Assembly: GCA_021815405.1 (NCBI GenBank)
Contig: JAKAGV010000012.1
Span: forward strand, 62,001 to 126,000
Reading direction: 5' to 3'
DNA from: Bacteroidota bacterium
Lineage (GTDB): Bacteria > Bacteroidota > Ignavibacteria > Ignavibacteriales > Ignavibacteriaceae
DNA: 64,000 bases
The position numbers and the translations under genes were made by a program. Below are positions 2,114 through 61,412 of the stretch, piece after piece (positions within the stretch are counted from its first letter, which is position 1; the number at the start of each line of letters is the position of its first letter). The notes beneath the pieces were generated by a model, which was given only the letters and a program-made list of their open reading frames with translations, was not told the origin of the DNA and did no database searches.

Positions 2114-2704
2114 TCATCTAATGACACCACTGGTTATCATTAAGCGCATGCCGTTTCCTTTTTGAAATATCATATAGGGCTTTGAAACAGCTTCGCTCTC
2201 CTGCTGAATAATCAAATTATTAGATCCCTGCTGTGAAAAGTAATATTTGGTGAAATCCGAGTCTAATTTCTGAGCTAAAAAATTATTATTTCCTTCCTGA
2301 ATAAGGACAGAGTTATTATAATTCCCTTCTACTGCAACAATCATTTTGTTCCCCAGACCACTCTGATTTACCGAATTATAGTTGCCTTTACCAGATTGAT
2401 TTATGCTTGCCTGGTTATTATCAAAATATTGAGTTATTGCACCTGTATTTCCCGTTACTTCATTGTCTTTTACTTGTTCAATATAAGCTTCATTATTATT
2501 TCCTAATTGAATAATATCTGCTCTGTTTGTAGCTATTTCCAAATTTTTATTATATAGATTAATATTTTTAATTTGACCCGAGATGTTTAATAATTTATTT
2601 TCTATAAGATCGCTATACAGCATCTGATCATTTATAGATTGAGAAAATGATATTTCTACTGTTATACAAAAGATCACAATTATGTAATTAAGTTTTGCTC
2701 TCAT
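2114..2704 (-). CDS. Divergent curlin-repeat protein (possible nucleator-type subunit)
   Basis: 196 aa with a signal peptide ending near SFSQ. From about residue 60 there are irregular curlin-type repeats of the pattern Q.G..N.A.I.Q (for example IIQLGNNNEAYIEQ, INQSGKGNYNSVNQSG, IQEGNNNFLAQ). Residues 25-60 are a non-repeat segment not found in the two larger curlins next door. The tail departs from the repeat and is richer in hydrophobic residues, as in CsgB, whose last repeat differs from those of CsgA. Curlins are secreted through the CsgG pore and polymerise into cross-beta fibres. Its size and irregular repeats make a minor or nucleating subunit plausible, but this is inference; the sequence does not distinguish CsgB from CsgA function. 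Confidence 0.75.
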   Translation of the reverse strand: MRAKLNYIIVIFCITVEISFSQSINDQMLYSDLIENKLLNISGQIKNINLYNKNLEIATNRADIIQLGNNNEAYIEQVKDNEVTGNTGAITQYFDNNQASINQSGKGNYNSVNQSGLGNKMIVAVEGNYNNSVLIQEGNNNFLAQKLDSDFTKYYFSQQGSNNLIIQQESEAVSKPYMIFQKGNGMRLMITSGVIR

Positions 2705-2801: not shown

Positions 2802-3797
2802 CTACTGCTGTAATATTATAGAGACATTCAACCAACCAGTCTGGAAAATTTTGGCTAAATTGTTATCGGTTGATTCTGAAATTTGAGCCTTATTAGTATT
2901 ACCGGCTTCTTGTGAAACAGTTGCAACATTCGAATTACCGATTTGTAATACTGATGCCAAATTATAGTTGATACTTTTTAATAATCCCTCTTCTATCGAA
3001 GCACTATTTAAATTACCTGTTTGCATTGTTTTTATTTCGTCACCAGCAATACCATTATTGTTACCAATCGAAGTAATAAGTGAAGTATTATTTTTGCCAA
3101 CTTGTTTTTGATGAGCATAGTTATTATCACCAATGAGATATGCATTTGAATTATTAGAGGTACCATCTAAATAATTTTCAGTGGAACCTGATTGAAATTG
3201 ATAAAGGTTATTACCATTGCCATCCTGTACCGCTTCTGATAGGGAACGTAAATTATATTGCTCTAAATGAGCAGAGTTAGAACTACCGTTTTGAAAAACA
3301 TATCCTTCATCATTGGTGCCGATTTGTACATGGAAAAATAAATTTTTATCTCCGTTCATTTGATCAATGCCGGAAATATTTTGCCCATTCAAAAGTGGGT
3401 TGACATCCTGTGAAATAAAAGCAAGGTGGCTATTACCAAATTGACCTATCCCTGCAATATTGTAAGCTCCGCTTTGAGTAACAGATGATCTATTTAATAC
3501 TCCTATTTGAGTTATGCCATTGCCATGCATTGGACCGGAATAAAAGAGAATTGTTTTCGGGACATAAAAGGTATGAAGTATTCTGCCATTAACTAAATTA
3601 TGATTACCTGAAATTAAAATGTCTGAAAAATTATCATTCCCAAGCTGCTCAATATTTGAATTATTAAATTCTCCGTTTTCAAACGTTGCAGAAGAATTAT
3701 CAAAACCAGTTTGATTTGTATGCGAAGTATTATTCTGTGGGAATAAAATACTTGCTGATATCAAAACCAGTAACAATATTTTCGTTAATGTATTCAT
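2802..3797 (-). CDS. Curlin-repeat amyloid subunit (tandem paralogue 2)
   Basis: 331 aa. Signal peptide ends near ILFPQ. The mature protein is built of curlin repeats of about 11 residues per strand (N.A.I.Q.G..N), such as IEQLGNDNFSDI, VTQSGAYNIAGIGQFGNS and VLQIGNSNVATVSQEAGN. A non-repeat insertion at about residues 70-92 with the signature FYVPKT...Y..PM interrupts the repeats and is matched in the neighbouring 317-residue paralogue. E. coli CsgA has five repeats and is about half this length. Expected to be exported by CsgG and built into extracellular amyloid fibres. It sits 79 bp after the larger-copy paralogue; a strong hairpin lies in that gap. Confidence 0.88.
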   Translation of the reverse strand: MNTLTKILLLVLISASILFPQNNTSHTNQTGFDNSSATFENGEFNNSNIEQLGNDNFSDILISGNHNLVNGRILHTFYVPKTILFYSGPMHGNGITQIGVLNRSSVTQSGAYNIAGIGQFGNSHLAFISQDVNPLLNGQNISGIDQMNGDKNLFFHVQIGTNDEGYVFQNGSSNSAHLEQYNLRSLSEAVQDGNGNNLYQFQSGSTENYLDGTSNNSNAYLIGDNNYAHQKQVGKNNTSLITSIGNNNGIAGDEIKTMQTGNLNSASIEEGLLKSINYNLASVLQIGNSNVATVSQEAGNTNKAQISESTDNNLAKIFQTGWLNVSIILQQ

Positions 3798-3831
3798 TTT
3801 ATTTACTGTTATTTTTAATCAGTAATTATCA

Positions 3832-3865
3832 TATTGCCCCGCGAATTATTACCCGCGAGGCAATA
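3832..3865 (-). terminator. Stem-loop between two curlin genes
   Basis: Inverted repeat with arms 3832-3843 (TATTGCCCCGCG) and 3854-3865, 11 of 12 positions paired, and a 10-nt loop. This is a GC-rich stem in very AT-rich DNA. It lies just after the stop of the upstream curlin gene and before the next. There is no clean T run behind it on the minus strand, so it may be an mRNA 3' protector, processing site or partial terminator giving different amounts of the two subunits. Confidence 0.55.
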
Positions 3866-3876
3866 CTTGGTTAATA

Positions 3877-4830
3877 TTAATGTTGAGATACTGTTGAAAA
3901 ATTAGATGCACCACTTTGTACAACATGCGCGATATTACCGTCTGTCGTCTGTGATACTCTAGCTTCATTCAAGTTTCCGCCTTCTTGGGATACTGTTGCA
4001 TTATTTAAACTACCAGTCTGTAAAATTGAGGCTAAACTAAAATTAACTGCTCCAGCTAGTCCTTCTTCAATAGAAGCGCTATTTCCATTACCTGTCTGCA
4101 ATGTACTAATGGCATCACTTAAAAGACCATTACTGCTGCCAATGGAGGTTATTAATGATTTATTTGCAGCGCCGCTCTGGCTTTGAGTAGCATAGTTAGT
4201 ATTGCCAATTTGATATGAATAAGCTTCATTCATGTTAGGTGAAAGACCTCCACCTGATTGAAACTGAGTTAGATGGTTACCAGATCCATTCTGAACGACG
4301 TCAGATAAAGCAACATTAATTTGAGTTACTTGAGCATTGTTCAATCCACCCTTCTGTAAAATGTAGCTTTCGTCAACTTGACCTACCTGCATTATTGAAG
4401 CTGTGTTGGTATTACCATCTAATTGGTCAATCCAAGCATTTCGATAACTTGTTGATGAAACCGTAGGATCCATCTGATTTATCGTTGCCATATCGCTGTT
4501 CCCATATTGTGCAATACCTGCTTTGTTATAGTTCCAGCTCTGTGTAATCAAACCAGTGTTAAAATTACCATGTTGTGTTACACCTTTTGCAAGCATTGGA
4601 GCAGGGTATGATATGCTAGTGTTTGGAACAGTAAATGCATGAGTAATAAATGAATGGTCATCATTATTGTTACCTGAAGATAAAATTATTGCAGTGTTTG
4701 TACTCCCAAGCTGCTCAACGAAAGCGGCATTAAGGCTTCCGGTTTGGGTTGTTGTTGCTGTATTACTCTGTCCGAAAGTGACAGTAGCAAACAAAATAAC
4801 TACGAATAAACTAACAAATAAATTTTTCAT
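3877..4830 (-). CDS. Curlin-repeat amyloid subunit (tandem paralogue 1, probably the major fibre protein)
   Basis: 317 aa. Signal peptide ends near TVTFG. The mature chain begins directly with curlin repeats (TTTQTGSLNAAFVEQLGS) and keeps them to the end (VVQSGASNFSTVSQH). It shares layout with the 331-residue neighbour, including the non-repeat insertion at about residues 56-82 with FTVPNT...Y..PM, so the two arose by duplication. The start has a good ribosome site (AAAGGAAAA). First curlin gene after csgG but separated from it by 765 bp, so it may have its own promoter. A leader hairpin lies just upstream. The regular repeats, ending in Q.G..N, suggest the main fibre subunit; this is inference. 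Confidence 0.88.
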   Translation of the reverse strand: MKNLFVSLFVVILFATVTFGQSNTATTTQTGSLNAAFVEQLGSTNTAIILSSGNNNDDHSFITHAFTVPNTSISYPAPMLAKGVTQHGNFNTGLITQSWNYNKAGIAQYGNSDMATINQMDPTVSSTSYRNAWIDQLDGNTNTASIMQVGQVDESYILQKGGLNNAQVTQINVALSDVVQNGSGNHLTQFQSGGGLSPNMNEAYSYQIGNTNYATQSQSGAANKSLITSIGSSNGLLSDAISTLQTGNGNSASIEEGLAGAVNFSLASILQTGSLNNATVSQEGGNLNEARVSQTTDGNIAHVVQSGASNFSTVSQH

Positions 4831-5323: not shown

Positions 5324-5470
5324 TCAAATTATGCTCAGCAGAAACTCAATCTATTTTTAATTAAATTTATTTTTATTAAATTAAGATTGAATTTTAGATT
5401 AAAGGTGGCGTTAGAGTTCAGGTAATTCTCTACTATGTTTAATAGTAAAGAAGGGCTCTTTCGCTGCCTT

Positions 5471-5507
5471 TTTTACGATACAAACTGCTGGAATTCATAT
5501 CGTAAAA
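5471..5507. repeat. Inverted repeat between csgG and the curlin genes
   Basis: Perfect 10-bp arms TTTTACGATA (5471-5480) and TATCGTAAAA (5498-5507) with a 17-nt spacer. No T run follows on the minus strand, so it does not look like a simple terminator. Candidate operator or attenuator. Confidence 0.45.
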
Positions 5508-5595: not shown

Positions 5596-6990
5596 TTACC
5601 AATTCCCGAAATAAATATTTATGCCTAAGTCTAGATTCCAGAAGTAATCAAAAAATTTTCCATTACTTAATCCATCCAATTTATCACTCATTACATAGTG
5701 ATTTGTCAATTCTAAATTCATTCCGATATTGTCAAAAATCATATACTCTAATCCTCCTCCATATAAAATCGATGAGAAATATGAAGAGCTTAGGGATTCA
5801 GGATAAGGTATCGATTTTTTACTCTCTTCCCTGAATAAGAGCCCGCCGCCGAATACTATATAGGGAGTAAAATTGAATTCAGTTAAAAAGTAGTAATTAC
5901 CTCTTAGATCAATTGAATGTAAATATGAACTAAAAGAATTCTCTGCTGATAGCTTTCCTTTATAATAATTCACTTCTAAAAATAATTTGGGTGTAGTTTT
6001 TATTTTTAGATTGAGCCCTGCTATTGCATTTATTTCCGGATTAGAATAATCTCCAGAATATTTTTGACCACCAAAATTTAAACTTATTCCAAATCGTCCT
6101 CTATTTTTCGAAAAATTTCTATCGAGATAATCTTTTTTCTCGACTTCGTTCTTTTCCAAATAATAATTCCGTATTGTGGTAGATGAAATACCAGTTGAGT
6201 CTTTGAGCTGCCATAAATCATCTGATATTCCTTCAACAATTAAACTCAAAACTGCTTTTTCAATACATTGTGTAATACAAATATCCGTAGGCTCATTGTA
6301 TGAAATACCGGTTTCAGCTTGTAATAAGGAATTATATTCTACGAATCTGTAAACGCCAACATTAATTAATTGAGAGAGAATTGTTTTTGTTGTATAAACG
6401 GTCTTTAATATTCTTCCGTTTTGAGTTGAGGTTGCTCTTAGATAAATGGTAATTCTGTCCTGCCGGTATTGTCCGGAAGCGCTTATACCGAAATATTGTA
6501 TTCCCTCACCGCCTGTAAGAATATTTGAATCATAGGAAATAATCCCACCTTCTAAAATTATCCCGGCATATAATAATGGGGGCAGATCAGGTAGTTTTTT
6601 CCCATTTTCTCCTAAGAAATTTTCTCTGCTAGATCTAACTATTTTTCTCTCATTCAACAAATCAGATAGTCCTTCTCTTTCAATAGGAATAAACCATTTA
6701 GAATCTTCTAATGCTTTAATCAATATTGAAGTTGCGCCTTGTGTAACGGCTGTAGAAAAGCTACTGGTTCCCGAAGAAGATTTGTATTGCCCAGTTTGAT
6801 CTCTGAATTTATAAACTGCAGCAACAATTTTATCTTTCGGTTCCGGCAAGGATGTTAATTCAATATTCGTAGCTGTTCTTGGACCTAATGTTGCATTTGA
6901 ACTATTAAAAGGTTCAAAATAAGCACAGCTTGTTAAGCAGAGTAAGGAGAATATTGATGCAAACCATATATTATATTTTGTTAATTTCAT
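5596..6990 (-). CDS. csgG: CsgG-type curli secretion pore with C-terminal outer-membrane barrel
   Basis: 464 aa. Lipobox LTSC with Cys22, as in CsgG lipoproteins. Residues about 40-265 match CsgG: the VAVYKFRDQTGQ start, the GATSILIKALEDSKWF region, the FIPIEREGLSDLLNERKIVR stretch and the GG.I.YDSN.LTGG segment that leads to the pore strands. E. coli CsgG ends soon after this. Here about 190 further residues form alternating beta strands (FGISLNFGG, LFLEVNYY, PYIVFGGGL) ending in an aromatic residue, as in an 8-stranded OmpA-like barrel. CsgG forms the nonameric outer-membrane channel for curli subunits. The gene is 14 bp after csgF. The barrel extension is the odd part; its role is unknown. 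Confidence 0.9.
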   Translation of the reverse strand: MKLTKYNIWFASIFSLLCLTSCAYFEPFNSSNATLGPRTATNIELTSLPEPKDKIVAAVYKFRDQTGQYKSSSGTSSFSTAVTQGATSILIKALEDSKWFIPIEREGLSDLLNERKIVRSSRENFLGENGKKLPDLPPLLYAGIILEGGIISYDSNILTGGEGIQYFGISASGQYRQDRITIYLRATSTQNGRILKTVYTTKTILSQLINVGVYRFVEYNSLLQAETGISYNEPTDICITQCIEKAVLSLIVEGISDDLWQLKDSTGISSTTIRNYYLEKNEVEKKDYLDRNFSKNRGRFGISLNFGGQKYSGDYSNPEINAIAGLNLKIKTTPKLFLEVNYYKGKLSAENSFSSYLHSIDLRGNYYFLTEFNFTPYIVFGGGLLFREESKKSIPYPESLSSSYFSSILYGGGLEYMIFDNIGMNLELTNHYVMSDKLDGLSNGKFFDYFWNLDLGINIYFGNW

Positions 6991-7004: not shown

Positions 7005-7442
7005 TTAATAAAACGGCACAATAATACTTGTTTGATTTCCATTCGTGTTATCTTGAATATTTATATGAACACCATCGTTAGAGGGATTAACATCAATTAC
7101 GAAATTTCCAATTTCATAATGCCCCTCAGTTATATTTCCCTCTCCAAAAACTGATTTAATAATCTTACTGGATAGTTGGCTTAGTATCTGATTGTTTAGA
7201 TTCTGTGAGAACTGGTCCAGTGAATTAGTTCCATATAGACCACTGTACATGTTGTTATATGAACTTGCTGTGAATTTATTTTCTGCCTGTGCAATTGAAA
7301 GCATCCAGGAACCATTGAATGAGCTCCCTCCGAATGCCGGATTTATTGGAGTATAAACCAATTGCTGGGGATAAAGATTTACGCTGAATAATGTAAGCAG
7401 AAAGAAGCTTAAAAATATTTTAAAGATAAATTGTTTCATCAT
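7005..7442 (-). CDS. csgF: Curli assembly protein CsgF
   Basis: 145 aa with a signal peptide ending near LYPQQ. The mature N-terminus LVYTPINPAFGGSSFNGSWMLSIAQ matches CsgF, in which the F.NP.FGG....G..LL..AQ segment inserts into the CsgG barrel. The later parts also fit: LDQFSQNLNNQIL, then FVIDV and the G.QTSI.VP ending. CsgF sits in the CsgG channel and links nucleator to the outer membrane. Gene order csgE-csgF-csgG with 23 and 14 bp gaps indicates one transcript. Length is normal for the family. Confidence 0.93.
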   Translation of the reverse strand: MMKQFIFKIFLSFFLLTLFSVNLYPQQLVYTPINPAFGGSSFNGSWMLSIAQAENKFTASSYNNMYSGLYGTNSLDQFSQNLNNQILSQLSSKIIKSVFGEGNITEGHYEIGNFVIDVNPSNDGVHINIQDNTNGNQTSIIVPFY

Positions 7443-7465: not shown

Positions 7466-7954
7466 TTAAAAAATCCCAGTTCCTTTTAAATCTGATCCTT
7501 GTATTTCAGCTTGAATAGTTTTATAATTTTGTAAATATGTTGAGGCTATATTTATCGCTTCTGCAGCATCATCAACAATATTTTCATATCTGGGTTTTAT
7601 AAAGTTCTGATATATATCATCCCCATTAATATTTATTATTATTTGTGTTACAAGTCCCGGAAGTACTTTTTCTCCTACTGTTATTGTATAAGTTTCTGTT
7701 TGTTCTGGCGGTATCCAATTGGTATTAAATAGCTCGAAAAAATCCCTTCCCAATTTGCTTTGGGTTTGATCAATTATCATTCCTTCCAATTCAATATCTT
7801 TATTAGCAAGCATGTTTGAATCTGTAATCAATGTATCTGTTGAAATATTTTTTAATATCTGGATTGATGTAGAATCTTGAGAATAAGTTGTCCTAATTCC
7901 TAGAAGCATAATAATAACCGTTAATATTATAAATCTCAGATTCTTCATTAACAT
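7466..7954 (-). CDS. csgE: Curli assembly specificity factor CsgE
   Basis: 162 aa with an N-terminal hydrophobic signal (residues about 8-25). The core matches CsgE: GMIIDQTQSKLGRDFFELFNTNW, then YTI.VGEK....TQI.I.ING..IYQNFIKPR, then AA..A...L. CsgE is the periplasmic factor that caps CsgG and selects curli subunits. It starts the csgEFG block, 33 bp after the CheW-like gene, so the two are probably co-transcribed. Start could be the first Met or the one two codons later; neither has a clear ribosome site. Confidence 0.92.
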   Translation of the reverse strand: MLMKNLRFIILTVIIMLLGIRTTYSQDSTSIQILKNISTDTLITDSNMLANKDIELEGMIIDQTQSKLGRDFFELFNTNWIPPEQTETYTITVGEKVLPGLVTQIIININGDDIYQNFIKPRYENIVDDAAEAINIASTYLQNYKTIQAEIQGSDLKGTGIF

Positions 7955-7986: not shown

Positions 7987-8484
7987 TTATTCCGACATCC
8001 GTTTTTCAACATATTTAAAATTGTCTAAAGGACTTAGTTTGTTTAACTCTTTTGTTATTCTTTCGAAATCCAATAATAAGATTTTCCTGTTTTCAAATAT
8101 CAAATAACCTTTTATATACTTTATTCTTGACGAAAGGATCATGTCTAAGGATTTATTTATAAATATTTTTTCTGTAGTCAATATTTCCGAAACTTTGTCA
8201 ACTAAGAATCCAAATCTTGTTTGAAAAATATCGAATAGAATTATTCTTGTGTCATTTTTTTGTTTAACAGTATTATAGTTTAAAGTTTTGTATATGTTAA
8301 TTAGTTTATACTTGTCATCATTAAACTGAATTTCGGACTTAGGCATTCTCGATAAATTTGATGCCGCTTCTTTTAGATTTAATATGGCAGTTACAAATCT
8401 CATATCTGAGCAAAATTCCTGGTTACTTATCTCAAAGATCAATAATCCATCTACTCCTAAAGTCAAACCTTGATTTACATCCAT
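7987..8484 (-). CDS. Orphan CheW-like domain protein at the head of the curli operon
   Basis: 165 aa, no signal peptide or membrane segment. The single domain resembles CheW: an N-terminal strand LLIFEISNQEFCSDM, a central Y/I..IYK region, and the signature FGFLVDKVSEIL followed by the KGYLIFENRKILLLDFERI end strands. A paralogue with the same FCSDM and FLVDK motifs lies at 56572-57066. CheW couples receptors to CheA kinase, but there is no CheA or chemoreceptor gene in this window. Lying directly before csgE and after an NtrC-type gene, it may link a signalling array, or the PAS kinases nearby, to matrix production. That role is inference. Confidence 0.8.
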   Translation of the reverse strand: MDVNQGLTLGVDGLLIFEISNQEFCSDMRFVTAILNLKEAASNLSRMPKSEIQFNDDKYKLINIYKTLNYNTVKQKNDTRIILFDIFQTRFGFLVDKVSEILTTEKIFINKSLDMILSSRIKYIKGYLIFENRKILLLDFERITKELNKLSPLDNFKYVEKRMSE

Positions 8485-8545: not shown

Positions 8546-8561
8546 CACAAACAGCATGCCT
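8546..8561 (-). promoter_or_regulatory. Weak sigma-54-like promoter upstream of the CheW-csgEFG operon
   Basis: Minus-strand AGGCAT-N5-TTGTG has the GG and TTG elements with the right spacing for TGGCAC-N5-TTGCW, but the -12 element reads GT instead of GC. It is about 62 nt before the CheW-like start. An NtrC-family gene is immediately upstream, which gives the match some weight. Confidence 0.3.
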
Positions 8562-8758: not shown

Positions 8759-10108
8759 TTAAGACTGAATTATAGTGTGAAGTTTAATTTTATTATAAAG
8801 TGTTTGTCTGGAGATCTTAAGTAATTTGGCGGCTTCTTTCTTATTCCAATTTACTCTATTCAATATTTCTTTGATATGTTCTTTTTCGATAGAGTTTAAA
8901 CTTAAATCAATAGGATTTGACCTAATTGTATTCACCATATTATTTCGAAGTAAGATATTTTCTTTTTCAAGTGTCTCGCTTTTTGCTAGAACGACAGCTT
9001 GCAATAGCGTATTTTCAAGCTCCCTTATATTCCCAGTCCATTCGTATTTTTTTAATATCTCAATTACTTCATAAGGAATTTTATTCACTTTTTTATGAAG
9101 TTGTTTGTTTATCCTTTTTAAAAAGTGAATAACTAATCCCGGTATATCTTCTTTGTGCTCTCTAAGCGGCGGAACTTTTATTTTAAATACATTAAATAGG
9201 TAAAATAGATCAGCTCTAAATTTCCCCTGCTCAACTAATTGTTGAAGATTTTTATTTGTTGCCATAATTACTCTTGCTTTAAGTTGAATAGGAGCCTCAC
9301 AATCGATTCTTTTGAATTCATGCGCTTGAATTACATTTAATAACATTACCTGAAGTTTGGGAGTTAGTTCTGATATTTCATCTAAAAATATTGTCCCCTT
9401 ATCGGCTAGTTCAAATTTACCTTTTTTTATTCTTATAGTCCCATCCGTCATTTTTTTTTCAAATCCGAAAAGTTCTTCCTCAAGAAAGGATTCAGGCAGT
9501 GATGAAAGGTTTACACTGATAAATGGATATTCCATGGTTATGCCTGAATTGTGAATCACTCTGCTAATTAATTCTTTCCCTGTACCACTCTCACCTTCAA
9601 TTAATATATTTACTTTATTGGAAGATACTTTCCCGATTATCTTTAATATTTCCCTCATCTTAGGTGTCTTACCAATTATAATATCTTCATCAATTACATT
9701 ATTAAAACCAGTTGTTTCAATTTCCAACCTTTCTTTTTCTTTGTTCAATTTCATTACATCCATTGTTATGGATTTCAGCTTGCCTAGGTCCAAAGGATTT
9801 TCAATACAATCATAAGCTCCGATCTGCATCGCTTCTATTATAGGTTTCGTGTCATCAAATGTAGTAGTTAAAATAATTGGGATATTTTGATCAGATTTTT
9901 TTATAATTTTTAATAGCGATATGCCGTCTATTTGAGGAAGCTTGATATCTGCGATAATAAGGTTAGGCTTTTCTTTTCTATATGCTTCAATCCCTTTCTT
10001 TCCATCTGATGCTGCCATTACCTTGAAATTCAATTCATTAAAGAAAATTAGTAATGTGTCCGAAATTAGTTTATCGGGAGTGACGATTAATATTTTCCCA
10101 TTTTCCAT
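8759..10108 (-). CDS. Degenerate NtrC-family regulator (pseudo-receiver, AAA+ without GAFTGA, Fis-type HTH)
   Basis: 449 aa. Receiver (1-120), AAA+ (about 140-380), Fis-type helix-turn-helix (about 410-445, with NWNKKEAAKLLKISRQTLYNKI core). Walker A GESGTGKE (172-179) and Walker B (239-245) are intact. The acceptor Asp54 is present, but the acidic pair is replaced by Thr10-Pro11 and the conserved Lys by Asn104. The GAFTGA loop that contacts sigma-54 is replaced by KMTDGT (219-224), and the second arginine finger is Leu304 while Arg298 remains. The canonical paralogue at 57401-58759 aligns without gaps through this region, so the changes are real substitutions and not misreading. It probably binds DNA but may not activate sigma-54 promoters; it could be a repressor or a partner in mixed oligomers. 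Confidence 0.88.
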   Translation of the reverse strand: MENGKILIVTPDKLISDTLLIFFNELNFKVMAASDGKKGIEAYRKEKPNLIIADIKLPQIDGISLLKIIKKSDQNIPIILTTTFDDTKPIIEAMQIGAYDCIENPLDLGKLKSITMDVMKLNKEKERLEIETTGFNNVIDEDIIIGKTPKMREILKIIGKVSSNKVNILIEGESGTGKELISRVIHNSGITMEYPFISVNLSSLPESFLEEELFGFEKKMTDGTIRIKKGKFELADKGTIFLDEISELTPKLQVMLLNVIQAHEFKRIDCEAPIQLKARVIMATNKNLQQLVEQGKFRADLFYLFNVFKIKVPPLREHKEDIPGLVIHFLKRINKQLHKKVNKIPYEVIEILKKYEWTGNIRELENTLLQAVVLAKSETLEKENILLRNNMVNTIRSNPIDLSLNSIEKEHIKEILNRVNWNKKEAAKLLKISRQTLYNKIKLHTIIQS

Positions 10109-10375: not shown

Positions 10376-10747
10376 TCAATTGTAAAAAATTCTCGCGATT
10401 GTAGGAAGTAACTGCTCAGCAAAATTTTGCTTGGGTATAAACTCGTTAGCGCCAGCCGCTAAGGATTGTTCTTTATATTCAAAATTATTGTTAAATGTTG
10501 TTATGATAATTTTAATGCTCTTATTAAACGATCTTATTTTTTTTGTAGTCTCTAATCCATTTAATCCGTCAATATTCAAATCCAGGATAACAAGATCAAA
10601 ACTATGAGTTGAGATTTTGGTTATTGCCTCCTCACTGGAAGAAGCCCACATAATAATTTCGAATTTTACATTATTATTAATAAAACTTATAGCTGAATTT
10701 CTAAATTGATTATTGTTATCGACCAGCATTATTTTAAGAGCTTTCAT
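10376..10747 (-). CDS. Stand-alone response-regulator receiver protein
   Basis: 123 aa from the ATG at 10747, chosen over an in-frame ATG five codons earlier because a GAGGT ribosome site lies correctly in front of it. A single receiver domain: Asp10 of the acidic site (VDNNNQ, second acidic residue replaced by Asn), acceptor Asp56 (LVILDLNID), the IITT strand and Lys106 (IPKQ). No output domain, as in CheY and Spo0F-type proteins. It lies between the NtrC-like gene and the NarL-type regulator on the same strand and may pass phosphate to or from one of the kinases in the window; this is inference. Confidence 0.85.
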   Translation of the reverse strand: MKALKIMLVDNNNQFRNSAISFINNNVKFEIIMWASSSEEAITKISTHSFDLVILDLNIDGLNGLETTKKIRSFNKSIKIIITTFNNNFEYKEQSLAAGANEFIPKQNFAEQLLPTIARIFYN

Positions 10748-11064
10748 GATTACCTCAAACAAATGTTTTGTTAATATAACAGTTACTATTCAAGTAGTTA
10801 ATCTATGCTATTAATGACGCTCGTACAATCGGGGAATCCCTTATTATAATTAATTAAGTTACTTATACTGCATAGATATTTGTATTATTCTTCAATGGGC
10901 GAGAAAATAATTTTCTTTTAAAAGGAGATTGAATGTAATACTTCATAAGGCAGAATCTTTAGAAATGATTTGTAATATGAATGGATAAGTTTAGAGGAAG
11001 TAATATTGGAAGGCTCAATGAGGAATAAAGGAACGGTTGATAGAATTGAATAAAGATTTCAAAA
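10748..11064. other. Intergenic region with a GGGAATCCC dyad
   Basis: Gap of about 320 bp between the receiver gene and the NarL-type regulator. It contains the GGGGAATCCCT site listed separately. I see no ORF: an AAGGAGA on the plus strand is followed by ATG and an immediate TAA. Confidence 0.5.
10831..10841. promoter_or_regulatory. GGGGAATCCCT dyad, candidate operator
   Basis: An 11-bp word with a GGGA-A-TCCC dyad core, about 85 bp upstream of the receiver gene. The exact reverse complement occurs at 13325-13335, upstream of the kinase gene. GC-rich words of this length are unlikely to repeat by chance in such AT-rich DNA. The NarL-type regulator encoded between them is a natural candidate to bind. 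Confidence 0.4.
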
Positions 11065-11736
11065 TTAATTAGGAGAGATAATCCCTGTTCTTATTGCGTA
11101 ACGGACCAAACCCGGAATATCATAGATTTCTAGTCTTTCCATAATTTTCATTCTATGCGATTCGACAGTTTTAATGCTTATAAATAGTTTTTGTGCAATT
11201 TCTTTGGTAGTATTTCCCTCAGCTATAAGCTGAAGTATTTCTCTTTGTCTTGAAGTTAATTTTACAAAAATTCCCTCCATTGTCTTATCTTCTTGATTTG
11301 TACCGCTTATTCTGTTTAGGTAGTCATTGACAAGTGTTTTTGATATTGAAGGGCTTAAATATGTTTCGCCGCGAGTTACAGCCTTAATTGCAATTTCTAA
11401 TTCGGTAGGCGCAGAATCTTTTAATAAATAACCATGTGCACCAACTTTCAATGCTTGCAGCACGTATTCTTCATTTGAATACATTGATAAAATTATTACG
11501 TATACCGTTTCAAATTCTTTTCGCACTCTTTCCGCAACTTCTAACCCATTTAATTCACTCATGGCAATATCAAGTAAGATTATATCAGGCTGCAATTCCT
11601 GAGTTTTTTGTAAGGCTTCTCTGCCGTTTGATGCTTCGCCAACAACTTGGAAACCGCCCATTCCTTGCAGAAGTTGACGTAAGCCTGCTCTAATTAAAGT
11701 ATGGTCATCCGCAATTAAGATTTTTATATTTTGCAT
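11065..11736 (-). CDS. NarL/LuxR-family response regulator
   Basis: 223 aa. Receiver at 1-120 with Asp10/Asp11 (IADDH), acceptor Asp56 (ILLDIAMS), the ILSMYS strand and Lys (LLKDSAP). LuxR-type helix-turn-helix at about 158-215 (LTSRQREILQLIAEGNTTKEIA, then KTVESHR). All key residues are present, so it should be active as a phosphorylated DNA-binding protein. It lies 39 bp downstream of the HisKA_3 kinase gene on the same strand; this is the standard pairing for NarX/NarL or DegS/DegU-like systems. Targets may include the GGGAATCCC sites on both sides, which is inference. Confidence 0.93.
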   Translation of the reverse strand: MQNIKILIADDHTLIRAGLRQLLQGMGGFQVVGEASNGREALQKTQELQPDIILLDIAMSELNGLEVAERVRKEFETVYVIILSMYSNEEYVLQALKVGAHGYLLKDSAPTELEIAIKAVTRGETYLSPSISKTLVNDYLNRISGTNQEDKTMEGIFVKLTSRQREILQLIAEGNTTKEIAQKLFISIKTVESHRMKIMERLEIYDIPGLVRYAIRTGIISPN

Positions 11737-11775: not shown

Positions 11776-13212
11776 TTATTTAAAAGGAAAAATCGCATGA
11801 ATTCTTGTTCCCTCTTTTGATTTTGACCATATATCTACCCAGCCGCCTACTAACTCCGCTCTTTCTTGCATTCCTAGAATCCCTATACTATATCCGCCAA
11901 TGGCATTTTCTCTTGCAGAATTAACATCGAAACCAATTCCATCATCTGAGATTATTAAATGCAGCTCTTTTTGTTTTACATAAATTTCAACGGACATATT
12001 TTCTGCCTGCGAATGCTTGATAATATTTGTCACTGCTTCCTGGATAATTCGGAAACATGTAATTTCTAGTTCATGCGGTAACTTTTTATCAATTTCACTG
12101 GTTGTCAATTTCGCATTTATATTTGCTCTCTGTGTTTGTCTATCTAAAGTCCATCTGACCGCAGGTATAAGACCTAAATCATCAAGAATCGATGGTCGAA
12201 GAATAAGTGACATTTCTCTAACGTTATTTAAAATATTTTCAACGAGTTTAACAGTATCTTTAAGTTTTTCTCTCACTTCTAATGAAGTAATGGAGGTTAG
12301 AATATTTATTAAATCAATTTTAATTGCTGTCAGTGTCTGACCGATTTCATCATGAAGTTCTCTGGCAATATTTCTTCTTTCCGTTTCTTGTACCTGGATC
12401 ATTTGCTTTGATAAATTTTTCAATATATTCTGAGCGGCAACAAGTTTATTAATTAATTTTTCCTGCATTTCTTCAGCATTTCTTCTTTCAGATATATCTC
12501 TAAAGATTAGCATAACCATTTTGTTTTCAAGAATTCGAATACTTATTTCGGAAGGGAAAAGGCTGCCGCTCTTACGCATGATATTCGAACTAATGTGAAA
12601 ACTTTTATACATGTTTTTAGAAATATTCTTCGGGGTCATTATTTTTTTTACTTCATCTGGTATTACTTTATTTATATTTAACTTTTCTATTTCCTTTTTT
12701 GAAAATCTAAGCTGCTCTATAAGCCTTGAATTCCAAATCAGCATATTTCCGCTTTTATCTACCAAGGCTACTCCGTCGAATTGTTGTTCAATTAAGGATT
12801 TGTACCTCTTTTCACTTTCATTTAGATCTTTTAATAATTTTATTCGTTGAGTTATATCTCGTGTAATGGAGGTAATACCTACCAATTTACCGCGTTCATT
12901 TTTTATAGGTATTAAGGTTGTTGAAACATTTTTAATAACCTTGTTCTTATCAATCCGTTCGGTTTCGATATGATATGTTTTCTTTTCCTTTCGAATATTT
13001 CTTATAATTTTTAAGAATTCGTCTTTTCTTTTTGAAGGAATAATTATTGAGATTGACTTACCAATAATTGCTTTAGATTTATAACCATATAATTTTTCAG
13101 CACCTGGATTCCACCCCAAGATGGTTCCCTTTAAGTCTGTTTCAATCAGACAATCGTCAACCGATTCCCATAAAGATGAAAGTTTTAAAATTTCCTTCTT
13201 TTTCTGATCCAT
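11776..13212 (-). CDS. Cytoplasmic PAS-PAS HisKA_3 sensor histidine kinase
   Basis: 478 aa without membrane segments. Two PAS domains (about 8-125 and 133-245), a coiled linker, then a HisKA_3 dimerisation domain with His287 in RRNIARELHDEIGQ, as in NarX and DegS. The HATPase domain (about 375-478) has the N box (EAVTNIIKH), the DDGIGFD box and GILGMQERAELVGG. Soluble PAS kinases of this kind sense redox, gas or metabolite signals inside the cell. Partner is the NarL-type regulator directly downstream. The gene is divergent from the beta-helix protein gene, with an intergenic region rich in dyads. Confidence 0.92.
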   Translation of the reverse strand: MDQKKKEILKLSSLWESVDDCLIETDLKGTILGWNPGAEKLYGYKSKAIIGKSISIIIPSKRKDEFLKIIRNIRKEKKTYHIETERIDKNKVIKNVSTTLIPIKNERGKLVGITSITRDITQRIKLLKDLNESEKRYKSLIEQQFDGVALVDKSGNMLIWNSRLIEQLRFSKKEIEKLNINKVIPDEVKKIMTPKNISKNMYKSFHISSNIMRKSGSLFPSEISIRILENKMVMLIFRDISERRNAEEMQEKLINKLVAAQNILKNLSKQMIQVQETERRNIARELHDEIGQTLTAIKIDLINILTSITSLEVREKLKDTVKLVENILNNVREMSLILRPSILDDLGLIPAVRWTLDRQTQRANINAKLTTSEIDKKLPHELEITCFRIIQEAVTNIIKHSQAENMSVEIYVKQKELHLIISDDGIGFDVNSARENAIGGYSIGILGMQERAELVGGWVDIWSKSKEGTRIHAIFPFK

Positions 13213-56571: not shown

Positions 56572-57066
56572 TCATTCTTCTGATTTATTCCTAATAAAAG
56601 ATTCACCATTAACTTTTTTTAGTTCTGATGATGCTATGCTGTTAAAGTCTAAAAGGAATAAATTTTTCTTTTTTAATTTTAGAATGCCTGAAAGGTGAAT
56701 TATCCTCTGGAACGGTTCGAATTCCATTTCGCTTATAATGTCTTTATCTAGACTATATATGTTGCAAATTTTATCAACGAGAAAACATAAAAACTGATTA
56801 TTTATTTCTATGACCAAGATTCTATCATCTTCAGAGCGCGGCTTAGAATTCAATCCGAATATTTTGTACAGATCAATCATTGCAATCTTTACTACACCCA
56901 AATTAATATGCGGAGATGCCGAATTAATATTTTCTTCTTGATTTAGCTCTGTTGGATTAATAATTTCTACAATGTTTGCCATATCAGAACAAAAGTATTC
57001 GCCGTTAATTTTAAAAGTTAAAAGTCCTTTAAAATTTTCTAATAGAGAAATATCTTTTTCATTCAT
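56572..57066 (-). CDS. Orphan CheW-like domain protein heading the polysaccharide cluster
   Basis: 164 aa, soluble. CheW-like features: LLTFKINGEYFCSDMANIVEII, a central IAMIDLYKIFG and LCFLVDKICNIYS, with a LSGILKLKKKNLFLLDF end. Shares the FCSDM and FLVDK motifs with the protein at 7987-8484 and so is its paralogue. No CheA or receptor in the window. It is the first gene after a sigma-54-like promoter (57093-57108) and has a good AAGGAG ribosome site. Probably a link between kinase signalling and matrix genes; unproven. Confidence 0.8.
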   Translation of the reverse strand: MNEKDISLLENFKGLLTFKINGEYFCSDMANIVEIINPTELNQEENINSASPHINLGVVKIAMIDLYKIFGLNSKPRSEDDRILVIEINNQFLCFLVDKICNIYSLDKDIISEMEFEPFQRIIHLSGILKLKKKNLFLLDFNSIASSELKKVNGESFIRNKSEE

Positions 57067-57092
57067 CTACTTATACTCCTTAGCGCCATTTA

Positions 57093-57108
57093 TGCAAATA
57101 ATAGACCA
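57093..57108 (-). promoter_or_regulatory. Sigma-54-like promoter for the CheW-like/polysaccharide operon
   Basis: Minus strand reads TGGTCT-ATTAT-TTGCA: the -24 TGG and the -12 TTGC are present with exact spacing (GG and GC separated by 10 bp). Three bases of the -24 box (TCT for CAC) deviate. Transcription would start about 27 nt before the ATG at 57066. The gene for an intact NtrC-family regulator with GAFTDA lies just upstream. Confidence 0.55.
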
Positions 57109-57266
57109 CCAAGTCTTGCCCTATTTTATTTCCAAATTCGAAAGCGATATTTAGTGGATGTCTAATAATTTTACCAAGGCATATAATAATTAGACGCAAG
57201 GGGGAGGTAATTAAATGTTATCTTTTAGACTAAATAACTGATATTATACAAGTAAATAAAAATGGC

Positions 57267-57287
57267 ATGCTGAATTTGTTTCAGCAT
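57267..57287 (-). terminator. Intrinsic terminator after the NtrC-type gene
   Basis: Perfect 8-bp stem ATGCTGAA/TTCAGCAT, 5-nt loop; on the minus strand the stem is followed by GCCATTTTTATTT. It separates the kinase-regulator operon from the CheW-like gene. Confidence 0.6.
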
Positions 57288-57400
57288 CTAAAAACATTGC
57301 AAGAGGAGATTCTGAAACAAGTTAGGAATGACAAAAAATTATTTTGCGTAACTTCAATTAAATAAATTGAAATATTAAGTTTAGATATTTAGGCCTGAAA

Positions 57401-58759
57401 TTAGGAGGGTTTAGATTCGGTAATATTATATTGAGCAATTTTATTATATAATGTCGCTTTAGTTATCCCCAAAATTTTGCTTGCTTGACTTTTATTCCAT
57501 CTTACATGATTTAATATAAATTCGATATGTCTTCTTTCTACCTCGGCTAAGGGAACAATGTCTCCCTGCGATTTAGTTTGTGATGGATTGTGTTCAATAA
57601 AATTAAAATATTCTTTTCCCAGTACGTTATCTTTTGCTAATAATACAGCGTTCATTAAAGTGTTTTCTAGTTCTCTAATATTTCCGCGCCACTCATGTTC
57701 TTTTAGCATTTCCATAACTTCATAAGGGACTGTGTTTACTTTTTTATGAACTTCTAAATTGATTTTTCCTAAAAGATGTACAACCAGTTTGGGAATTTCT
57801 TCCTTTCTTTCCCTTAATGGCGGAACGTTAATTGAAAAGATATTAAGCCGATAGTACAAATCTTCTCTGAATAGATTTTTCTTAACTAATTCCATCAAAT
57901 TCCTATTTGTAGCAGCAACTATTCTTGCTTGCATTGGAATTGATTCTTCTCCCCCAAGTCTTTCAAATTCCTTTTCTTGTATAACACGTAATAATTTTGC
58001 TTGAAGTTTTGGAGAAAACTCAGATATCTCATCGAGAAAAATTGTCCCTTTTCCCGCTAACTCGAACTTACCTTTCTTATTTCTTGTTGCATCTGTAAAT
58101 GCACCTTGTACGTGTCCAAATAATTCACTCTCAAGTAAAGTTTCAGGTAATGCCGAACAATTTATAGCGATGAAAGGTTCGTTTTTTGTAATACCGCTGA
58201 AATGAATCATTCTTGTTATAAGTTCCTTACCGGTTCCGCTTTCTCCCTGGATTAAAACATTCACTCGCGTACCGGAAACTTTACCAATCTTTTTGAATAT
58301 TTCCTGCATCTGTTCTGTAATTCCACCGATCATAAAATTTTTCATTATAAGTTTTTCATTTTCATTCGGCAGCGGAATTATCATCTGATCATTTTTTTTC
58401 TTACTTTCAAGTGTTTTTTTGACGATTAACTTTATTCTTTTTAAATCAAGTGACTTTTCAAAAAAATCGAAAGCTCCCAACTGCATAGCTTTAATTATCG
58501 AATCTGTCTCATCAAAAGCAGTTATGATAATTACTGCAATACTTTCATCATAAGCTTTTATTTGCTTTAAAACTTCTAAGCCGCTAATGTCCGGCATTCT
58601 TAAATCGGTTATTACGACGTCTGGATTTTCTTTCTTAACATAATTCATTCCCTCTGTTCCATTTGCCGCATAATCCACATGGGGAAATAATTCAGATAGA
58701 AAAATTTTTAATGTTTGTGCAAATGCTTTATCATCATCTATTATAAGTATTTTCTCCAT
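57401..58759 (-). CDS. Canonical NtrC-family sigma-54 response regulator
   Basis: 452 aa. Receiver 1-120 with DDD (8-10), acceptor Asp52 and Lys102; AAA+ domain with Walker A GESGTGKE (172-179), the sigma-54 contact loop GAFTDA (219-224, variant of GAFTGA), Walker B (239-245) and arginine fingers Arg298 and Arg304; Fis-type HTH at about 415-445 (WNKSQASKILGITKATLYNKI). All parts for a working sigma-54 activator are present. Overlaps the kinase gene by 26 bp, so they form a coupled two-component pair. Aligns without gaps through the AAA+ core with the degenerate regulator at 8759-10108. Confidence 0.95.
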   Translation of the reverse strand: MEKILIIDDDKAFAQTLKIFLSELFPHVDYAANGTEGMNYVKKENPDVVITDLRMPDISGLEVLKQIKAYDESIAVIIITAFDETDSIIKAMQLGAFDFFEKSLDLKRIKLIVKKTLESKKKNDQMIIPLPNENEKLIMKNFMIGGITEQMQEIFKKIGKVSGTRVNVLIQGESGTGKELITRMIHFSGITKNEPFIAINCSALPETLLESELFGHVQGAFTDATRNKKGKFELAGKGTIFLDEISEFSPKLQAKLLRVIQEKEFERLGGEESIPMQARIVAATNRNLMELVKKNLFREDLYYRLNIFSINVPPLRERKEEIPKLVVHLLGKINLEVHKKVNTVPYEVMEMLKEHEWRGNIRELENTLMNAVLLAKDNVLGKEYFNFIEHNPSQTKSQGDIVPLAEVERRHIEFILNHVRWNKSQASKILGITKATLYNKIAQYNITESKPS

Positions 58760-61412
58760 CGGTGTCTTTTCTTCTAAATTTTAATTCAAAAATAGTCATT
58801 CCCGGTTCAGATGATTTCAGATTAATTGAACCTTTATGATATTCCATTATCTTTTTAACAATACATAATCCCAGTCCGGTTCCATTAGATTTTGTTGTAA
58901 AAAAAGGATTAAAGATTTTATCTTTTTGAATTATTCCGTTGCCCGTATCTTTAATGCAAACGGAATAATAATCATTATCTTCTATGGAGGACAATTCAAT
59001 CGTTCCTCCTAATGACACAGCCTCTATAGAATTTTCAATTAAATTTGTAAAAACAGAGAGCAGGTTTATGTAATCCCCATATATTTTTATTTCATTCACT
59101 TTATTTATAAATACTATTTTTTGGGCATCAATTTTCTTTTTTAGCAGCTCATGTACTTTTTCGATTATCTTATTTAAATCAATTTCTACTTCTATTAATT
59201 CCTTACTCTGTGAATAATTTAATACGTCTTTTATGAGTCTATTAAGATGGTCAATAGCATCATGCATTAGATCAAGTGTATCTCTGCTATTGTTGGATAT
59301 CTCATTATTTTCATATAATAATTCTATGTAATTCTTAAGTGCGGCGAGAGGATTTTTTATTTCGTGGGATAAGTAGGCAGTCATAGCACCTATCGAGGCA
59401 AGTCTTTCAGCTTTAAGAAGCTCTTCTTCATTTCTTTTATATTGTGTATCATCCCTGAAAATTGAGAAAAGTAAAGTTTGATCTTCTTTAATTTCTAGAA
59501 AGGTAAATGTAACATATAGAAAAACTTCCTTTCCATTGTGCAAATGTAAATACTCGTGCCGGTGCTTTTGAATTTTTTGTTCCGAAAAGATTTTTTTATA
59601 TAGTTTTAAATTATTTACTCTTTCGGCTTCATTCATCTTATATATTATATAAAAGGGTTGGTTTATTAATTCCTCCTCCGCCATATTAACTAATTTACAA
59701 AAAGCTTTATTTACAGCTACCATAATTCCATTTTCATCTGTTAATCTCATCCCATCATTTGATTGTTCCCATATATTTCTAAATCTTGATTCCGAAAACA
59801 TAAGCGCATTTTCAGCCTGCTTGCGTTCAGATATATCCCGCTGAACTGCTAAAAATCCGGTAACTTCGCCTTTTTCATTATTTATTGGGTCGGCAGTTCC
59901 TTCAATATAAATATTATCCCCGTTTTTATTTTTATTTATTACTTCACTTTTAACACTGTTACCGGCTAATAAGGTCTTCCAGAATAAGTCATGAAGATCA
60001 GGATTTGTCATTCCGCTTTTCAAAATTCTAGGTGTTACTTTCCCGATTATTTCATCTTTTGTATAGCCATATATTTTTGTAAATGCAGGGTTGATGTATG
60101 TTATAATTCCATCCGTATTTGTTGTAAATATTATTTCTCCGGAAGATTCAACAGCATGACTAAGTTTTATGATTTCTTCTTCACTATTTTTCTTTTCAGT
60201 AATATCCCTGAAAATTGAAAATATTAATGTATCTTTTTCAAATAGCGGGACATCCGTCGTAGATTCAATCAGGGTACTAGTAATTTCAAAATATTTCTTT
60301 TTCTTACAGCTTAGTTTTATTTCTCCTTCAAAGGTAGTTTCATATTTCCTTTCCTTTAAAATGTCTTCAATTTTTTCAATTGATTCTTGAGATCCTGATG
60401 AATTATGTATATCATAAATAATTGAAAATGGTTTACCTAATAATTCTTTTGACGACATCTCCACCAGTTTACAAAAGGCGGGATTAGCTGCAACAATTAT
60501 TCCTGATTTATCAAGAAGACGCAGACCATTAACACTATAATTCCAAAGAGCCTGAAAACGCGTTGCTGTTTTTTTAATAGCATTTTCAGAATTCTTTAGT
60601 TTTGTTATATCTTTTAGTACGATTAAAAAATTATTGCATTTAGTTGATAAGATTTCTACTTCAATATATCTTGGAAAATTTCCAATATTAATTGAAGAAC
60701 TTATTGAGATATTTTCGTTTTCGGTCTTTAAGCTTTTAATAGATTTAATAATATTGTTGAAGAGGCTTTGATCAAACAAGGATATTATATTTCCTTTTAG
60801 GTCTATCGTTCTTATATAATTTTCTTCTCTCCAATCCGAATATTTTAAACTTTTTATTTCACCGTTTTCATCTATCTCAATATATACCTCCGGTAATCTT
60901 TCGAACGTCCTAGTTAAGTCTTTTATTAACGATGCAAATAATTCTTCTGTTTTTTCTTCAGTAGGTTTTTCAGTCGCTATTATTTGGAAACCAAATACCT
61001 CATAATCCTCACCGACTATTGGTATAATTTTTAGCTGTACGATAATAATAGTATTATTTTTTTTCAGGCTGGATGTTTTTTGGAGGATTAGAAAATTTTT
61101 CCCTCTCAGTTCTTGTTTCAAATATTTTATTGAAATGTTGCATCCAATAAAGATATGTGGAAAATTAATATTTAATAGTTCAAGAAGGGAGTATTGGTAT
61201 GCCTTAAGAAAAGCACCATTTGCATAAACAAAATTATAATTGCTATCAATAATGGATACTAAATCAGTAGAAAAATTGTAGCAAGATTCAATTTCCTTTA
61301 TCTTTGAAACCAATACGCTGTATTTACCGCTTGTATGGTTCTCCTTATTATCCTCACACGTGCGAACTTGTCCCTTTGGGAACATTCTGTTGTCCCTAAC
61401 TATTTGATACAA
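58734..61412 (-). CDS. Soluble multi-PAS sensor histidine kinase
   Basis: 892 aa, no membrane segments. Five PAS-type regions at about 40-150, 165-275, 283-410, 415-535 and 540-660, several with the RDIT/RDIS end motif. HisKA with His683 in LSHEIKNPLAAL, then HATPase with N790 (NLIENSIEAV), DTGNG and GTGLGL. Kinases like this (NtrB/HydH family) phosphorylate NtrC-type partners; the partner gene overlaps by 26 bp. The N-terminal 30 residues are uncertain because the first ATG has no clear ribosome site; the ATG nine codons later is an alternative. Signal unknown. Confidence 0.92.
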   Translation of the reverse strand: MYQIVRDNRMFPKGQVRTCEDNKENHTSGKYSVLVSKIKEIESCYNFSTDLVSIIDSNYNFVYANGAFLKAYQYSLLELLNINFPHIFIGCNISIKYLKQELRGKNFLILQKTSSLKKNNTIIIVQLKIIPIVGEDYEVFGFQIIATEKPTEEKTEELFASLIKDLTRTFERLPEVYIEIDENGEIKSLKYSDWREENYIRTIDLKGNIISLFDQSLFNNIIKSIKSLKTENENISISSSINIGNFPRYIEVEILSTKCNNFLIVLKDITKLKNSENAIKKTATRFQALWNYSVNGLRLLDKSGIIVAANPAFCKLVEMSSKELLGKPFSIIYDIHNSSGSQESIEKIEDILKERKYETTFEGEIKLSCKKKKYFEITSTLIESTTDVPLFEKDTLIFSIFRDITEKKNSEEEIIKLSHAVESSGEIIFTTNTDGIITYINPAFTKIYGYTKDEIIGKVTPRILKSGMTNPDLHDLFWKTLLAGNSVKSEVINKNKNGDNIYIEGTADPINNEKGEVTGFLAVQRDISERKQAENALMFSESRFRNIWEQSNDGMRLTDENGIMVAVNKAFCKLVNMAEEELINQPFYIIYKMNEAERVNNLKLYKKIFSEQKIQKHRHEYLHLHNGKEVFLYVTFTFLEIKEDQTLLFSIFRDDTQYKRNEEELLKAERLASIGAMTAYLSHEIKNPLAALKNYIELLYENNEISNNSRDTLDLMHDAIDHLNRLIKDVLNYSQSKELIEVEIDLNKIIEKVHELLKKKIDAQKIVFINKVNEIKIYGDYINLLSVFTNLIENSIEAVSLGGTIELSSIEDNDYYSVCIKDTGNGIIQKDKIFNPFFTTKSNGTGLGLCIVKKIMEYHKGSINLKSSEPGMTIFELKFRRKDTDGENTYNR

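Follow-up and report, generated by a model that had tools for sequence, protein, structure and literature searches.

A curli-locus regulator of the NtrC family that has lost the GAFTGA loop, and its apparent two-step departure from sigma-54 in a member of the Ignavibacteriaceae

The window, that is, the whole stretch of 64,000 nucleotides analysed here, carries a curli locus headed by an NtrC-family regulator, with the genes of a CheW-csgEFG-csgA-csgB order all downstream of it on the minus strand (Table 1). By sequence, the regulator is best classed as a new addition to the sigma-54-independent bEBP descendants, and the reading given somewhat better than an even chance is that it is a dedicated curli regulator, formerly a sigma-54 activator, which left sigma-54 in two steps and was likely retained as a DNA-binding regulator. 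Two adjacent csgA-like genes occupy 2802-4830 of the window; a scan of the orthologous locus gave one.

Table 1. Features of the window and their coordinates
Feature	Coordinates	Strand	Remarks
Curlin-repeat protein (csgB-like, author's label)	2114..2704	-	
Second curlin-repeat protein (csgA-like)	2802..3797	-	
Curlin-repeat protein (csgA-like)	3877..4830	-	
csgG	5596..6990	-	
csgF	7005..7442	-	
csgE	7466..7954	-	
CheW-domain protein	7987..8484	-	conserved neighbour of EBPs of the window-regulator type
Weak -24/-12-like remnant	8546..8561	-	AGGCATG CTGT TTGTG; aligned place of the L029 site
NtrC-family regulator, 449 aa	8759..10108	-	degenerate receiver, AAA+ without GAFTGA, Fis-type HTH
Codon 304	9197..9199	-	Leu replaces second arginine of RxDxxxR
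Codon 258	9335..9337	-	Asn where 49 of 50 relatives have Arg
Codons 219-224	9437..9454	-	KMTDGT replaces GAFTGA
Codon 104	9797..9799	-	Asn replaces conserved receiver Lys
Codons 10-11	10076..10081	-	Thr-Pro replaces receiver acidic pair
Receiver-only protein of HK-NarL-REC cassette	10376..10762	-	
NarL/LuxR-type response regulator of cassette	11065..11736	-	sequence and homology
PAS-type histidine kinase of cassette	11776..13212	-	sequence and homology
CheW-like protein, second module	56572..57066	-	
Paralogous EBP (GAFTDA), second module	57401..58759	-	
Histidine kinase, second module	58734..61412	-	

The open frame of the regulator contains matches to the Response_reg, Sigma54_activat, AAA_lid_14 and HTH_8 domains, which is the NtrC-type architecture of a receiver, a sigma-54-interaction AAA+ domain and a Fis-type HTH. 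A sequence-only reading had listed T10-P11, N104, KMTDGT at 219-224 and L304 beside intact Walker motifs and HTH, and translation confirmed these residues. D54, T82, Walker A (GESGTGKE), Walker B (FLDE), R298 and the HTH are kept; of the features of a phosphorylatable receiver (acidic pair, D54, T82 and K104), the acidic pair and K104 are gone. The loop is neither GAFTGA nor a variant accepted in the list of PMC3162934, placing the protein among descendants of sigma-54 activators that have lost GAFTGA. The arginine motif reads RADLFYL (RxDxxxL) in place of the trans-acting RxDxxxR. The description of L304 as a lost second arginine finger holds for the second arginine of that motif, whereas the arginine finger proper of PspF has been assigned to R162 (PMC3419264), which matches the retained R298. 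The naming differs between papers, since PMC3419264 takes R162 and PMC7175178 treats R299/R168 as the finger. The PspF matches used here (R298 to R162, L304 to R168 and N258 to R122) come from a constant offset of 136, while NtrC1 R299 corresponds to L304 by alignment. PspF variants at R168 lose most ATPase activity, and all but R168K lose stable contact with sigma-54 (PMC3419264).

KMTDGT, RxDxxxL and N258 each occur in one of 50 distinct aligned rows (window included), always the window protein, so that loss of the loop, of the second arginine and of R258 is confined to it among rows that were gathered by similarity to the window protein and are therefore not a random EBP sample. Of 110 near-invariant columns, it also departs at 16; among 38 rows, the runner-up departs at 8. 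A PF00158 search of its own genome gave 36 matches, 29 of them at E <= 9.5e-53 and the next at 3.2e-8; loops were read in all 29, and 27 keep the pattern G-[AS]-F-[TS]-x-[AS]. The two without it are the window regulator and L012:3765-5114 (contig C23 of the same genome, G000), which lacks GAFTGA (EPDAERG region), has Lys at the second arginine position and stands in tandem with a canonical copy, L012:1087-2436. The genome has one rpoN match for sigma-54. An AlphaFold model of the regulator built from 13 rows reached a mean pLDDT of 64.9 with a poorly predicted AAA+ domain and was set aside.

The earlier reading supposed that the loss of GAFTGA would prevent productive contact with sigma-54, and there is good support for this in the sequence, in the confinement of the loss to this one protein among relatives, and in a weakened -24/-12-like site beside the gene; to call such control unusual is too strong as a general claim, since activators without GAFTGA are a described class that includes the biofilm-matrix regulator VpsR. 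GAFTGA variants and about 110 defective homologues have been compiled, with TyrR, DhaR, HupR, VpsR and YplP as examples (PMC3162934). VpsR of Vibrio cholerae resembles the window protein as an NtrC-family regulator with a defective GAFTGA that controls biofilm matrix genes, and it is reported second-hand to act on sigma-70 promoters without needing phosphorylation (PMC10274813; PMC3162934). Its loop, however, has a deletion, whereas the window loop keeps its length with other residues, and the window regulator sits at curli rather than polysaccharide genes. The NtrC proteins of Caulobacter and Rhodobacter capsulatus share the receiver-AAA+-Fis HTH layout without GAFTGA and act at sigma-70 promoters (PMC10274813), and that of Caulobacter is reported to promote some sigma-54 transcription once its DNA-binding domain is mutated (PMC12421884); they differ in having loop deletions, a cognate kinase and a phosphorylation-relevant receiver, while the window receiver is broken and the protein adjoins no cognate kinase. 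HupR, TyrR and DhaR likewise derive from sigma-54 activators, having lost the loop and become independent of sigma-54 (PMC3162934), but they have other targets and experimental evidence, where the window protein offers sequence. Among the papers matched and listed, mostly outside subscription journals, none deals with the control of curli by NtrC-type proteins or sigma-54 in this group of bacteria.

Relatives were sought in 80 genomes of the family (matches at E <= 1e-110 in 25) and in 164 genomes of the order (matches at E 1e-134 in 17). The closest orthologue, L029, with 68% identity, lies on a contig of G021 (MAG FK_Sedi_B_Bin.66) and heads a matching EBP-CheW-csgEFG-csgA-csgB locus that also has a homologue of the 538-2025 protein. 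Its receiver is broken too, with Asn-Ser for the acidic pair and N104, but its GSFTGA loop, both arginines (REDLFYR) and a clear -24/-12-like site are intact. The question of whether the substitutions are conserved in orthologues is thus answered in part: the receiver changes are common to L029 and those of the loop and arginine are not. In a tree of 43 rows, the window protein and L029 pair with support of 100/99, the pair joins L112 (G257) and L113 (G233) at 95/87, and these inner four join L032 (G060) at 99/95 to form a curli clade of five, all of which stand upstream of csgEFG, with an extra open frame between EBP and csgE in G257. Noncanonical receivers occur in four of the 50 distinct rows, exactly the inner four, each altered in its own way (TP/D54/N104, NS/D54/N104, DG/E54/A82 and DG/A54), while the deepest member, L032, has a canonical receiver and a kinase gene overlapping the start of the EBP. 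No kinase of the module type adjoins L029, L112, L113 or the curli EBP of G055. A broken receiver is found in four of six curli-linked rows versus none of the 44 others (Fisher 6.5e-5), a value given no weight as a test because the four belong to a single clade, the linkage of the 44 was not checked individually, and one of them, G062, carries csgF on a separate short contig. Run against 391 genomes of the class, a profile of the five scored four curli-linked proteins at 796-813 bits and the next match at 677; it serves as a consistency check only, since those four are the profile's own rows. At L112:5326-6681 and L113:4518-5864, Glu or Ala stands at Asp54 with GAFTGA intact. The exchange D54E is a phosphorylation mimic in NtrC.

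Comparison with these relatives suggests that the losses came in two steps. The ancestor would have been a phosphorylation-controlled sigma-54 activator in a kinase-EBP-CheW module. In a first step, common to L029, the adjoining kinase would have gone and the receiver would have lost its acidic pair and Lys104, for which reason phosphorylation is proposed no longer to control the regulator. In a second, on the window branch only, the sigma-54-contacting loop and the equivalents of PspF R168 and R122, residues that act across subunits (PMC3419264), would have been lost and the adjacent -24/-12 site weakened. With the HTH and the ATP-binding pocket remaining, the protein may still bind curli-locus DNA, conceivably in the form of an oligomer insensitive to nucleotide, and would act without sigma-54, a repressor or architectural factor being more likely than a remodelling activator. 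The analysis itself shows homology, synteny, the order of the losses, their uniqueness, the acceleration of this one gene and a weak promoter remnant; we infer that ATPase and sigma-54 activity are lost and DNA binding is retained, as well as the direction of regulation; a repressor role, as the earlier reading had it, is possible. Most knowledge of how regulators leave sigma-54 comes from final states. In the present case, the transition is flanked by close relatives, all at curli loci, from the kinase-linked canonical protein of G060 through the middle state of G021, G233 and G257 (kinase-free, broken receiver, intact loop) to the loop-less window regulator. The value of the window regulator lies in these relatives, with which the order of losses would be testable using the natural proteins in a laboratory host.

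For sigma-54 sites, the 250 bases ahead of every CheW-like gene were scored against a -24/-12 consensus matrix that was approximate and had rounded weights. A best site of at least 5.5 precedes cheW in 13 of 14 other loci, 34-77 bases from the start codon; the exception, L099, scores 2.5, lower than the window, though its loop is intact. Among shuffled regions, 5% score at least 5.0 and 1% at least 8.7, so sites scoring 5.5-7.6 are individually modest. The best score in the window is 3.3, reached by 8.8% of shuffles, at a remnant 77 bases before the cheW start that coincides in pairwise alignment with the L029 site GGGCATA TTAT TTGCA. This site appears weakened rather than shown dead: it retains GG and TTG at the correct spacing, and three GAFTGA-bearing relatives also lack the C of TTGC, so that residual sigma-54 use is possible. 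At csgA/csgB of the window, the best further sigma-54 score was 6.1 in a 795-base stretch, out of register with the orthologue, and before csgE at the L112 and L113 loci no clear sigma-54 site emerged; a search for sigma-70 sites was uninformative (42 found versus 38.5 expected from shuffles), and no convincing palindromic binding site was common to the window and orthologue gaps.

With G060 as outgroup, the EBP shows 54 window-specific versus 24 L029-specific changes (p 0.0009), while its curli-locus neighbours are balanced (window to L029, CsgG 29:32, CsgF 10:6, CsgE 15:10, CheW 15:14 and the 538-2025 protein 32:37). The faster evolution on the window branch is limited to the EBP and is not seen in these five neighbours. 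With six further outgroups, the EBP total stays unbalanced (p 0.033 to 1.5e-6), and for the AAA+ excess p is 0.05 with G060 and <= 0.008 with each of the other six; the imbalance of receiver and HTH was not significant with any of the seven. For the HTH the sample is small: all 8 near-invariant columns are unchanged, and the rate counts are level at 1-4 versus 2-3. All 20 near-invariant columns of the nucleotide pocket are unchanged, versus 14 changed among the 69 others in AAA+ and lid (Fisher p 0.03), and 6 of 13 changed at 205-228, both column sets having been picked after the changes were seen.

Of the competing explanations, the main one is decay, a doubtful though serious rival in which first the kinase and later control through sigma-54 ceased to be needed, the AAA+ domain drifted and no regulatory role was left. 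It draws on near-invariant columns changed at twice the next highest count, on the acceleration confined to the regulator gene, which decay would also give, on the weakened promoter site, and on a paralogue orthologue pair that is 82% identical versus 68% for the pair of curli regulators. Against it stand a full-length frame with no gap column relative to L029 and no stop, where neutral change would predict 3.3 stops for the 54 changes of the window branch (P of none 0.04), 5.2 for 86 changes (P of none 0.005) and 1.8 for the excess of 30 alone (P of none 0.16), together with a whole-gene dN/dS of about 0.07 (dS saturated) and an untouched nucleotide pocket. The intact frame, the stop expectation and the pocket constraint favour retention, with recent decay as a possibility beside it. 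That the changes are an artefact of assembly or sequencing is scarcely credible: the assembly is in 31 contigs and nine consecutive A fall at the loop, but the changes are spread over receiver, loop, AAA+ core and arginine motif, and this scatter, with the gapless frame, speaks against simple sequencing error. A compensated frameshift at the loop was rejected, neither other forward frame giving GAFTGA there.

It is improbable that the protein continues to activate sigma-54 with its unusual loop, for example as a constitutive and phosphorylation-free activator, in spite of the rpoN gene, the promoter remnant in register, the retained D54 and Walker motifs, and the BLASTP gap placement under which TDG aligns with the T-D-A of the paralogue at 57401-58759. 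Loop position 3 has no Phe or Tyr, other replacements there being classed as inactive in PMC3162934, and the PspF R168 effects described above point the same way. Least favoured save for the artefact is the suggestion of the sequence-only reading that the regulator acts as a dominant-negative partner, its mixed oligomers poisoning that paralogue, which we hold to be very improbable. The two share 50% identity over 448 aligned columns, and by analogy with PspF a lost trans-acting arginine could poison a neighbouring site. They fall, however, in different clades and differ in recognition-helix residues (KISRQTLYNKIK versus GITKATLYNKIA), and the paralogue sits with a kinase and a CheW of its own at an exopolysaccharide cluster; in G021, the 82% orthologue of the paralogue is found together with a curli regulator that bears GSFTGA, and the paralogue's clade occurs in G013 and G018 without a curli regulator of the window type. 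The partnership is thus unsupported.

The paralogue had also been described as aligning without gaps through the altered region with every residue canonical, which does not hold in full: it reads GAFTDA, Ser follows its K104, and BLASTP put two gaps at the loop. It is probably active despite GAFTDA, because G5-to-D is listed as a natural functional loop variant (FlgR) in PMC3162934. Its module adjoins genes read from sequence as exopolysaccharide synthesis and export. Of 21 EBP loci, 13 have a CheW-like gene immediately downstream in the same orientation and two have one that is divergent, and kinase genes adjoin many of them, including G060. Kinase-EBP-CheW modules (56572-61412 and relatives) recur in this order, some beside matrix genes, and are candidates for matrix-gene control in this class of bacteria.

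Upstream of the curli regulator, which on the preferred reading persists as a DNA-binding protein, lies an HK-NarL-REC cassette. Its kinase has one match in its own genome (E <= 1e-60) and matches in 11 other genomes of 164. In G110, of a different family, an HK-NarL-REC-REC cassette (identities NarL 62%, HK 36%) stands directly upstream of csgE with no EBP there, so the window has both kinds of curli neighbour. That the cassette now immediately upstream took over curli control is an attractive but predicted step, offered tentatively and at well under even chances; in G021, G018, G020 and G013, the cassette sits away from curli, and the separate places of the two in G013 count against a takeover. 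A fuller account would be a kinase-uncoupled lineage of curli activators, with natural D54E and D54A in sister genomes, that in this genome is leaving sigma-54 as loop, trans-acting ATPase residues and promoter erode together and the HK-NarL-REC cassette takes over; taken whole, it is rather unlikely. The receiver-only protein at 10376-10762 reads VDNN, so that its acidic pair differs by one residue from the VEDN or VDDN of its orthologues.

CsgF turned up in 17 genomes altogether, with matches in 9 of the 80 searched for the family and 11 of the 391 searched for the class. An EBP lies upstream of curli in nine of these 17, six of the window type and three of another (G164, G218 and G259) with a GA[FY]SGA loop and Pro for the Walker B Asp; of the eight without an upstream EBP, three have contigs that end within 2.4 kb. 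Loops of GAFSGA/GAYSGA type with LPE or IPE were read in L025 and L026 of the window's own genome and in L111, L114 and L115, from the curli loci of G259, G218 and G164. Each of the last three lies immediately before csgE, and its sequence shows no evident ordinary receiver.

A structured leader lies between csgG and csgA (window 5395-5480, minus strand; L029:12948-13035), with folding z-scores of -4.4 and -4.1. It had no Rfam match at the gathering threshold in the window, and a looser class-wide scan gave G000 plus two hits resembling chance. The leader is kept in window and orthologue (AGCGAAAGAG ... CTAACGCCACC flanking a variable hairpin), the remaining gap having diverged, and its pattern occurs among 21 relatives only in G000 and G021, at the csgG-csgA place alone.
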